A stretch of DNA of 64,000 nt, from the NCBI RefSeq assembly GCF_002806995.1, contig NZ_NIHE01000005.1:1-64000 (forward strand), given 5' to 3'. Position numbers and translations under genes: made by a program. Of this stretch, positions 54,413-55,819 are shown one piece after another; within the stretch, counting starts at the first letter, position 1; every line of letters begins with the position of its first letter. A model generated the notes under the pieces. The model was not told the DNA's origin and did not search any database. It saw only the letters and a list, made by a program, of their open reading frames with translations. This DNA is from Confluentibacter lentus. Lineage in GTDB: Bacteria; Bacteroidota; Bacteroidia; Flavobacteriales; Flavobacteriaceae.

Positions 54413-54781
54413 TTAACAAGCTGTTCTGTTTACGGTAAAATGTTTGTTCTCTTTGGGAAAATCAAAAAACGCACTAGAAATTCGTTCTTGGTAATTTGTT
54501 GCAGATTTTTCTTTTGTAACGATAATGTTTACCCAATAGCTACCCTCATTTTGTTTTACTAATTGGGCTTGTATGGTTAGTTTGTCGTTAACAAAGGCAT
54601 TCTTATACATTTTGAATTTGAAATTTCCAATATCAGGAACCCCTTGTAAATAAAATTCCTTAACGGGATAAGTAGCAACTGTTTTTATTTTATCATAAAG
54701 TATATGTGGTAATAAAAAGCCATTTGCATTGCTTATATCTTTAGTTACTATAAATGATGTGTTTATATGATGTGTTTTCAT
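54413..54781 (-). CDS. Uncharacterised protein, possibly a divergent hotdog-fold thioesterase
   Basis: I do not recognise this 122-residue protein with confidence. The middle and C-terminal pattern (FKMYKNAFVNDKLTIQAQLVKQNEGSYWVNIIVTKE...RISSAFFDF) resembles the second half of hotdog acyl-CoA thioesterases, where a 'vGD.l.i.A.v...g.ss..i.v.v' strand-turn precedes a final F.FV strand. The N-terminal catalytic helix (SNANGFLLPHILYDKIKTVA) lacks the usual acidic residue and glycine-rich turn. It ends in a lone cysteine. It has no signal peptide and stands alone with a shared terminator. Confidence 0.6.
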   Translation of the reverse strand: MKTHHINTSFIVTKDISNANGFLLPHILYDKIKTVATYPVKEFYLQGVPDIGNFKFKMYKNAFVNDKLTIQAQLVKQNEGSYWVNIIVTKEKSATNYQERISSAFFDFPKENKHFTVNRTAC

Positions 54782-54942
54782 GATTTTATTTTTTAAGGGT
54801 ATAACAATAATGGATACAAATTGTGTTTGTGAAATATAGTATGCATGACTTTTTTACAGGCATTTACATTGAATACAAACTGAAGCTTTTGGGTAATGGA
54901 ATTAAATGTTTTCATGGTTTTTAAAATTTAAATTGATATAAA

Positions 54943-54972
54943 ATAAAAAAGGTGCTTTAAAAAAAGCACCTT
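54943..54972 (-). terminator. Terminator of the candidate RNA
   Basis: An 8-10 bp stem (AAGGTGCTTT/AAAGCACCTT) with a four-base loop; on the minus strand it is followed by a six-T run. Confidence 0.88.
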
Positions 54973-55121
54973 GATTTGTTATAGATATAATTATATTATT
55001 AACGTTTATTCAAGATGCATATAACGGTCTTTGGTTTTAAGACATACGAACGTGTCCGACATATTCTGTTGGGAAATGCGGTTGCAAATTTGGTTATATG
55101 ACATCTTACTTGAATTCATAG
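54944..55121 (-). ncRNA. Candidate structured RNA, 6S-like (possible Flavo-1/6S-Flavo type)
   Basis: A minus-strand transcription unit of about 178 bases bounded by a perfect promoter (TTG-N19-TATATTTG, 55154-55125) and an intrinsic terminator (54972-54944). Its core ends pair: ATTC, AAGATG and CATATAAC (55117-55093) pair with GTTATATG, CATCTT and GAAT (about 55026-55007), 18 bp with two small bulges on the 5' strand. Inside are a wide, asymmetric open loop and a small apical hairpin (GACA/TGTC). A rod with a closing stem and a large central bubble is the 6S RNA plan; Flavo-1 is a flavobacterial RNA of similar size, from memory and not checked. A 37-codon ORF (55119-55006) runs through it but uses both stem arms, so I prefer RNA. 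Confidence 0.7.
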
Positions 55122-55124
55122 AAA

Positions 55125-55154
55125 CAAATATAAAATATTTTTTTTCGAAAACAA
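55125..55154 (-). promoter_or_regulatory. Promoter of the candidate RNA
   Basis: On the minus strand TTG at 55154-55152, a 19-base spacer and TATATTTG at 55132-55125. It is divergent from the small-protein gene at 55217. Confidence 0.8.
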
Positions 55155-55216
55155 TAATCTTTTATAAGGATTTTGAATAGATTAATGTAATTTTGCGTCA
55201 AAATAAATATTTAAAT

Positions 55217-55486
55217 ATGGCAAATGTTAGAAACCTAAAGAAAGATATTAATTATGTTTTAGGTGATATTATAGAAGCAGTTTACGTTTGGGAATTCGCA
55301 AACCAAGGAAAAGACACTAAAAAAAGCGAAGCAATAATTGATGAGGCAATTGAAACTTTTGATGCTTTAATTGCTAAAATAAACGATAGTAAAGTGGTTA
55401 ATAAAAAATCCCATTTTAAAGCTATTGCTAATGAGCTTGAAACTAAAGGACGTGCTTTAATCGAAAAAATTAACGCTCTAGGATAA
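55217..55486 (+). CDS. Small conserved helical protein of unknown function
   Basis: An 89-residue protein, mostly helical, rich in Ala, Lys, Glu and Asp (MANVRNLKKDINYVLGDIIEAVY...). The start at 55217 is the first ATG; upstream in-frame codons only offer TTG. A TAATTTTG box at 55188-55195 ends 21 bases before it. There is no signal peptide, membrane segment or cysteine. I recognise the pattern as one seen in flavobacteria but know of no function. It is divergent from the candidate RNA and 63 bases upstream of tRNA-Thr. Confidence 0.8.
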   Translation: MANVRNLKKDINYVLGDIIEAVYVWEFANQGKDTKKSEAIIDEAIETFDALIAKINDSKVVNKKSHFKAIANELETKGRALIEKINALG

Positions 55487-55549: not shown

Positions 55550-55623
55550 GCCGATGTAGCTCAGTTGGCTAGAGCAGCTGATTTGTAATCAGCAGGTCGT
55601 GGGTTCGAGCCCCTCCATCGGCT
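55550..55623 (+). tRNA. tRNA-Thr (anticodon TGT), second copy
   Basis: All 74 bases are identical to the tRNA at 37439-37512. Its last 17 bases are repeated, with changes, 150 bases further on. Confidence 0.95.
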
Positions 55624-55663
55624 CAATAAGACCTCAATCATGTAAATGGTTGGGGTTTTTTGT
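55607..55663. repeat. Direct repeat, copy 1 (tRNA-Thr 3' end plus terminator)
   Basis: It covers the last 17 bases of tRNA-Thr, the following spacer and the terminator stem, and matches 55757-55813 at a fixed offset of 150 bases with about nine to ten differences. Confidence 0.75.
55631..55661 (+). terminator. Terminator of the second tRNA-Thr
   Basis: An 11-bp stem ACCTCAATCAT/ATGGTTGGGGT (two G.T), loop GTAA and a T-run, 7 bases past the tRNA. Confidence 0.85.
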
Positions 55664-55706
55664 TGGTAGTCCTTTGGGCGAGAAGTTTATCCTGAGCATT
55701 ACTGAA

Positions 55707-55756: not shown

Positions 55757-55813
55757 GAGCTCTTCCATCGGTTCAATAAAACCTTAATCATATAAATGAT
55801 TGGGGTTTTGTGT
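55757..55813. repeat. Direct repeat, copy 2 (tRNA 3' end remnant plus terminator)
   Basis: A divergent copy of 55607-55663. Its hairpin (ACCTTAATCAT/ATGATTGGGGT) keeps pairing despite changes, so it can still act as a terminator; it lies 7 bases from the end of the PBP gene. Confidence 0.7.
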
Positions 55814-55819
55814 TATAAA

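Follow-up and report, generated by a model that had tools for sequence, protein, structure and literature searches.

The locus described here lies within a window of 64,000 nucleotides from Confluentibacter lentus (contig NZ_NIHE01000005.1, positions 1 to 64,000), a term by which we denote the whole stretch of DNA that was analyzed. On the minus strand, the order of features at this locus is a putative promoter, a small open reading frame (sORF1), an intrinsic terminator, a second small open reading frame (sORF2) and a gene for a hotdog-fold protein. The positions of these features, and of the RNA segments referred to below as regions 1 to 4, are given in Table 1; loci from other genomes are identified by L numbers where they need to be told apart. 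Within the genus, two of the four other Confluentibacter genomes carry this stretch, with 87% and 82% identity. The locus is flanked on the plus strand by a divergent gene (55217-55486) for an 89 aa protein (MANVR...), which is strongly conserved in Flavobacteriaceae and scores above the cut-off for no Pfam or NCBIfam family. Further along the plus strand, a tRNA 3′ end followed by a terminator-like sequence (ccatcggctcaataagacctcaatc...) at 55615-55665 recurs imperfectly about 150 bp downstream (55764-55815), perhaps as an insertion scar at a tRNA gene.

Table 1. Features of the sORF1-hotdog locus and their positions in the window.
Feature	Position	Strand	Remarks
Promoter, taken to be of Bacteroidetes type	55125..55154	minus	TTG (55154-55152), N19, TATATTTG (55132-55125)
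sORF1, 37-codon putative leader ORF (MNSSKMSYNQ...YMHLE)	55006..55119	minus	about 5 nt after promoter box
Region 1, 5′ arm of the 18-bp stem, inside sORF1	55093..55115	minus	kept in close relatives, without covariation
Region 2, 3′ arm at sORF1 end	55008..55025	minus	core GCATCTTG at 55018-55011; complementary to regions 1 and 3
Region 3, CAAGGTGC	54966..54973	minus	5′ arm of terminator; partner of region 2
Intrinsic terminator (regions 3, 4 and T run)	54945..54972	minus	exact pattern once in genome
sORF2, 40 codons	54793..54915	minus	ends in PLLLYP-stop, 11 nt before hotdog ATG
Hotdog-fold thioesterase-like protein (predicted), 122 aa	54413..54781	minus	presumed attenuator target

The arrangement of TTG, a 19 nt spacer and TATATTTG upstream of sORF1 had been pointed out in an earlier note on this DNA and is present as described there; we take it to be a promoter of the Bacteroidetes type. 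Among the 25 Flavobacteriaceae loci that contain the hotdog gene, a TAnnTTT[GA] box is found 4-9 nt upstream of the sORF1 ATG in 23, the exceptions being L118, where the spacing is 18 nt, and L119, which lacks the box. Only 11 of these 25 loci were found to have a TTG at the usual distance (15-24 nt).

The 37-codon ORF, which the same note had observed to enclose both arms of a proposed 18-bp stem, is indeed located in this manner, and sORF1 occupies the same place in all 25 Flavobacteriaceae hotdog loci. In five pairs of relatives, its pooled pN was 0.184 in comparison to a pS of 0.425, and the differences at codon positions 1, 2, and 3 numbered 38, 30, and 59, respectively. The frame is open in 32/32 loci, which were selected for its openness, versus 0/32 for the other two frames. 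Judged from these substitutions, sORF1 is a conserved coding frame. A Trp residue is present in 21 of the 32 sORF1 peptides, at codon 18 or 19 in 12 of them and within codons 14-23 in 20, compared with only 2 of the 26 sORF2 peptides (that of L105 being entered one codon short in the sORF2 peptide comparisons). The remaining 11 sORF1 peptides, including that of Confluentibacter, contain no Trp, and this residue should be treated as a lead rather than a rule. No run of control codons was seen in the leader ORF.

The second small ORF, sORF2, is likewise present in all 25 Flavobacteriaceae hotdog loci and it is missing in L152 and L154-L157. Its pN and pS values (0.231 and 0.467) and the differences at the three codon positions (47/43/73; five pairs) indicate that it is coding. 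The C-terminal PLLLYP-stop is kept in many relatives, while the remainder of the peptide drifts. The constraint on both small ORFs is weaker than that on the hotdog gene, for which pN was 0.096 and pS 0.487, with codon-position differences of 84/45/194 in five pairs. The 122 aa product of this gene is predicted to adopt a hotdog fold, as an AlphaFold2 model based upon 25 homologues (pLDDT 86.4) had as its best structural match the acyl-CoA hydrolase 5egk_B (Z 16.5 over 114 residues, rmsd 2.3). The predicted fold is common to this protein and the YciA/4HBT-type acyl-CoA thioesterases. However, the window protein matches no family in Pfam or NCBIfam and it differs from these enzymes at the Asp of the MD motif, the catalytic Asp of YciA-type thioesterases. 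In the alignment this position holds Lys in both the window protein and L105, Glu in L116 as well as L151, and Asn in L154; L159, L163, L166, and L169 have Asp. Because this Asp is replaced by Lys in the window protein, its catalytic activity is doubtful.

The distribution of this gene was examined by searches at three taxonomic levels. Within the Flavobacteriaceae, 25 of the 397 genomes matched the hotdog profile, and in six of these 25 loci the protein is only 23-30% identical to that of the window. Its presence is patchy, the gene being found in 7 of 80 loci retrieved by means of the neighbouring 89 aa gene. The order-level search yielded matches in 8 of 395 genomes, one of them the window's own; the other loci belong to family f2 (three loci, of which L151 and L153 have both small ORFs and L152 lacks sORF2) and to family f7 (four loci, L154-L157, with one small ORF and no sORF2). 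In the class-wide search 24 of 395 genomes matched, again including the window's own, and in a scripted scan of the other 23 loci L159 alone showed both a small ORF and, ahead of the gene, a terminator. The same scan found a small ORF and no terminator in L162, L163, and L164. In two of these (L162:1312-1395 and L164:1304-1381), Cys-rich ORFs of 25-27 codons with a GCCMPM motif and no visible terminator precede ordinary YciA-like thioesterase genes of another family, and these are perhaps related leaders.

The earlier note had interpreted the interval from the promoter to the terminator as a candidate 6S-like RNA, on account of an end-to-end stem, a central bubble and a terminator. Of the structure proposed for the core, 18 pairs do join its two ends, but in the minimum-energy fold they are arranged in blocks of 5 + 5 + 8 rather than 8 + 6 + 4. 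Both bulges are on the 5′ strand, as had been described, and measure 4 and 1 nt. In place of a single apical hairpin, the minimum-energy fold has three small hairpins in the loop, and the centroid retains two of them. The folding energy of the core is -23.3 kcal/mol (z -3.15), and that of the core with the terminator is -37.3 kcal/mol (z -4.48), with none of 200 dinucleotide shuffles being as good in either case. In 13 close relatives 78.8% of the cells of this stem are paired, versus 21.6-48.1% when it is slid. However, covariation in these relatives was equal to that in shuffles, and RNAalifold predicted the terminator alone and not this stem, and for these two reasons the stem is excluded from our evidence. 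The duplex of regions 1 and 2 was better than shuffles (p < 0.05) in 7 of 28 loci, and the stem is weak or absent outside the close relatives. The most plausible interpretation of the stem is that it may shield region 2 within this clade.

The covariance models provide no support for a 6S RNA at this locus either. When all families of Rfam 15 were compared with the window, gathering scores were obtained only for eight tRNAs and a part of 5S rRNA, and neither the 6S nor the Flavo-1 model, whose use had been proposed as a check, matched at the locus. For positions 54700-55400, three matches were seen up to an E value of 5 (rox2, BTnc060, and enod40), all of which were rejected as their scores are far under gathering; Flavo-1 (RF01705) is absent from the matches at the locus, and 11 related loci gave only tRNAs at gathering scores. 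The 6S-Flavo family (RF01685) has its match on another contig of the genome (G000:C23:259960-260066, 114.5 bits), whereas the general 6S model (RF00013) has no match in the genome. The locus has its phylum in common with 6S-Flavo and Flavo-1. These are two separate motifs in a table of RNAs listed for Bacteroidetes in PMC2864571. Although the end-to-end stem, bubble and terminator recall a 6S-type RNA that binds RNA polymerase, the unmatched models, the high-scoring 6S-Flavo elsewhere in the genome, the coding frame within the core and the weakness or absence of the stem beyond close relatives make this reading exceedingly improbable. The combination of a conserved frame, synonymous change and lack of covariation in the 18-bp stem, which had been named in advance as pointing to a small-protein gene, is what was observed. 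The RNA level nonetheless appears to matter, through a pairing between regions 2 and 3 that the first examination had overlooked together with the downstream sORF2 and hotdog gene.

The intrinsic terminator noted earlier is well borne out, with a hairpin at 54972-54949 where shuffled sequences give 0.1 terminator-like sites. It lies between sORF1 and the gene presumed to be controlled in all 25 Flavobacteriaceae loci, where the order sORF1-terminator-sORF2-hotdog is without exception. In the window, 8 pairs, one of them G-U, join GCAUCUUG at the end of sORF1 to CAAGGUGC, the 5′ arm of the terminator. Regions 2 and 3 are nearly invariant in 13 close relatives, and with so little variation they yield no covariation there. 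The suggestion that, failing 6S, this is an undescribed structured RNA holds in so far as the 3′ arm and terminator are kept as RNA, but their form is a different one and fits a transcription attenuator.

The exact pattern of the terminator occurs once in the genome, and hence its being a repeated element was rejected. It is found in 27 of the 397 family genomes, 19 of which are among the 25 with a hotdog match; in the remaining six hotdog genomes the exact pattern is missing. Eight genomes have the pattern and no hotdog match; six of these match on both strands, and in eight loci from these genomes (one of the two G389 sites being included) no sORF-hotdog layout was found. Four weaker DNA matches (L006, L011, L012, and L013) were set aside as terminators behind one identical unrelated gene.

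Several observations indicate that the complementarity between the end of sORF1 and the terminator is retained beyond the close relatives. In 23 of 28 loci, the final 45 nt of sORF1 contain the motif GCA[TC][TC], compared with 4 of 25 for the ends of sORF2, which served as a control. It is read in the same frame as in the window in 16 loci, in a second frame in three (L105, L151, and L153) and in a third in four (L107, L111, L116, and L118). As the motif occurs in three reading frames while the peptides diverge, it is the letters rather than the amino acids that are kept. In the f7 loci the terminator itself is different: its arm in L154 and L156 is GCCTTCAC, and the end of sORF1 contains GTGAAGGC, the exact complement, with six of these pairs retained in L155. 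In L119, AAAAGTGC replaces AAAGGTGC, and 10 pairs join the altered arm to a segment of sORF1. Against this, 5 of 28 loci (L099, L100, L113, L115, and L118) have the best partner of region 3 somewhere other than in the final 25 nt of sORF1.

When the last 50 nt of sORF1 were compared with 1000 shuffled tails, 20 of the 32 loci bound their own arm better with p < 0.05 (p range 0.001 to 0.275 overall), and p exceeded 0.1 in five (L113, L115, L117, L155, and L159). The combined p was 1.4e-8 over 11 hand-picked representatives, with their relatedness ignored. The binding is specific for the type of arm, the Flavobacteriaceae tails binding the f7 arm with a mean of -3.8 kcal/mol versus -10.3 to the GGTGC arm, and the f7 tails binding the GGTGC arm with -5.9 kcal/mol versus -14.0 to their own. 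L159, the sole class-wide locus added to these tests and chosen for its layout, provides no clear third case, as its terminator arm resembles that of f7 and is bound by f7 tails at -11.5 kcal/mol. L157 was left out of the 2:3 tests, its leader peptide being the same as that of L156 although the DNA is not identical, and L101, which has sORF1, GCATCTTG and the terminator, stands outside the 28- and 32-locus counts.

When the transcript was folded before addition of region 4, region 3 was paired to the tail of sORF1 in 30 of the 32 loci, against an expectation of 12.3 from shuffled tails; in 28 loci its partner was the named region 2. The four loci whose nascent fold lacks the named 2:3 helix are L104, L115, L154, and L155; in the latter two, a helix between mid-ORF and post-stop sequence competes with it. 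In L154-L156, GGGTTGTTAT in the middle of the ORF pairs with the post-stop sequence (ATAACAACCC in L155) and encloses region 2, and this protecting helix differs from that of Confluentibacter. Once region 4 was added, region 3 shifted into the terminator in 32/32 loci.

These results bear upon two other explanations of the locus. According to the first, sORF1 is a separate small-protein gene followed by an ordinary terminator, and sORF2 and the hotdog gene form a second unit with its own promoter, there being no attenuation. The coding signature and promoter of sORF1 accord with this, as does a weak box (TAAATTTT) in AT-rich sequence directly before sORF2 in the window, where an internal promoter may exist. 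However, this explanation, which we consider unlikely, does not account for the match of the sORF1 end to the terminator arm, which is seen in three frames and with terminators of different sequence, or for the retention of the terminator sequence where the hotdog proteins are 23-30% identical. According to the second, termination is controlled not by a ribosome on sORF1 but by the binding of some RNA or protein to region 2 or to the hairpin, the role of the ORF being minor or separate. The near-invariance of the terminator and region 2 in close relatives is what a binding site would show, but region 2 and the terminator change together in the f7 loci, and the ORF is open in every locus so chosen when the other two frames are open in none. 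We regard this explanation as quite improbable.

Across the loci compared, conserved ORFs, a terminator, complementarity of regions 2 and 3 and a downstream gene are observed. A leader ORF, an antiterminator, a terminator and a controlled gene constitute the layout of a ribosome-controlled transcription attenuator, and at the sequence level the first three of these are present, the antiterminator with exceptions (the four loci lacking the named helix and others). The interval is probably the front end of an mRNA rather than a 6S RNA, and we consider it likely that the locus forms the 5′ leader in an operon comprised of sORF1, an attenuator, sORF2 and the hotdog gene, under ribosome-controlled attenuation. 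Against this stand the hotdog gene, which is an unusual target for an attenuator, the lack of a control-codon run, the possible internal promoter before sORF2, the lack of covariation in the 1:2 stem and in regions 2 and 3 of close relatives, and the loci named above in which the 2:3 pairing is weak, displaced or not formed.

From this arrangement we infer a start site, a stall, a trigger for the stall and a direction of control, as follows. Transcription would start at or just before the sORF1 ATG, and a start at this position would enable ribosomes to follow directly behind RNA polymerase. In this group of bacteria only a minority of mRNAs are near-leaderless: they make up 5.5% in Flavobacterium psychrophilum according to excerpts of PMC9723704, and 87% of the predicted transcripts of F. 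johnsoniae have leaders >10 nt according to those of PMC6847099, where Bacteroidota are also described as lacking Shine-Dalgarno sequences. If sORF1 is read smoothly, the ribosome would reach the stop codon just after region 2 and cover this region, so that the terminator (3:4) forms and transcription yields no more than an RNA of about 175 nt. Without translation of sORF1, the 1:2 stem would hide region 2 in the Confluentibacter clade and termination would result as well. A ribosome held in the middle of the ORF would instead leave region 2 free to pair with the emerging region 3, and this pairing would pre-empt the terminator and allow read-through into sORF2 and the hotdog gene. Translation of the latter may then be coupled to or regulated by sORF2, whose Pro before the stop, near the hotdog start, could provide a second, translational control point.

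A broader and considerably more tentative proposal, which we put forward as a possibility that may well prove wrong, is that sORF1 belongs to an ancient family of leader peptides in Bacteroidia that act as sensors (arrest peptides), with Trp near codon 18 in most lineages examined. Such peptides would hold ribosomes in response to a metabolite, a lipid-related state or an inhibitor, and a hotdog acyl-CoA-binding protein would be switched on via the RNA switch, which would on one or more occasions have been rebuilt around another terminator sequence, with the leader ORF and the target staying in place. Should the attenuator reading be correct, the locus would constitute a conserved case from Bacteroidota in which the leader ORF is near-leaderless and the target thioesterase-like, and a regulator for a protein family that has no match in Pfam or NCBIfam. 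It would also offer a ready system for studying the coupling of ribosomes and RNA polymerase in Bacteroidota and what the leader senses.

Attenuators of the trp/his type consist of a short translated leader ORF, competing 1:2, 2:3, and 3:4 helices and a terminator before the controlled gene. A leader ORF, putative competing helices and a terminator before the presumed target are shared by the present locus. However, its putative target is a hotdog gene and not an amino acid operon, it has no run of control codons, its leader ORF is near-leaderless, a second small ORF follows the terminator, and the 1:2 helix is limited to one clade. TnaC ends in Pro-stop. In this regard sORF2 is TnaC-like, as are many sORF1 peptides in having Trp near codon 18, whereas the 11 Trp-free sORF1 peptides are not and stalling at the locus is putative. 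As in TnaC and in antibiotic-sensing leader peptides such as the Erm leaders, the ribosome may be held by a peptide motif instead of a codon run. Leader peptides of this class are the subject of PMC8429421 and PMC4935803. According to PMC2965389, leader-peptide systems had by 2010 been demonstrated in Proteobacteria and Actinobacteria alone, a further case being reported there from Firmicutes. The kind of regulator considered here, a leader-peptide attenuator, is known; a search of open-licence papers returned nothing on the present locus, and this case appears to be undescribed in that literature. A parallel comes from F. psychrophilum, where leader-peptide attenuation is suspected upstream of amino acid operons (PMC9723704). 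The excerpts of this paper, which name no hotdog gene, place these leaders before amino acid biosynthesis operons, and they discuss Rfp18, considered here from text that does not include its sequence. By these descriptions, the F. psychrophilum leaders have in common with our locus both the phylum and the kind of mechanism proposed.
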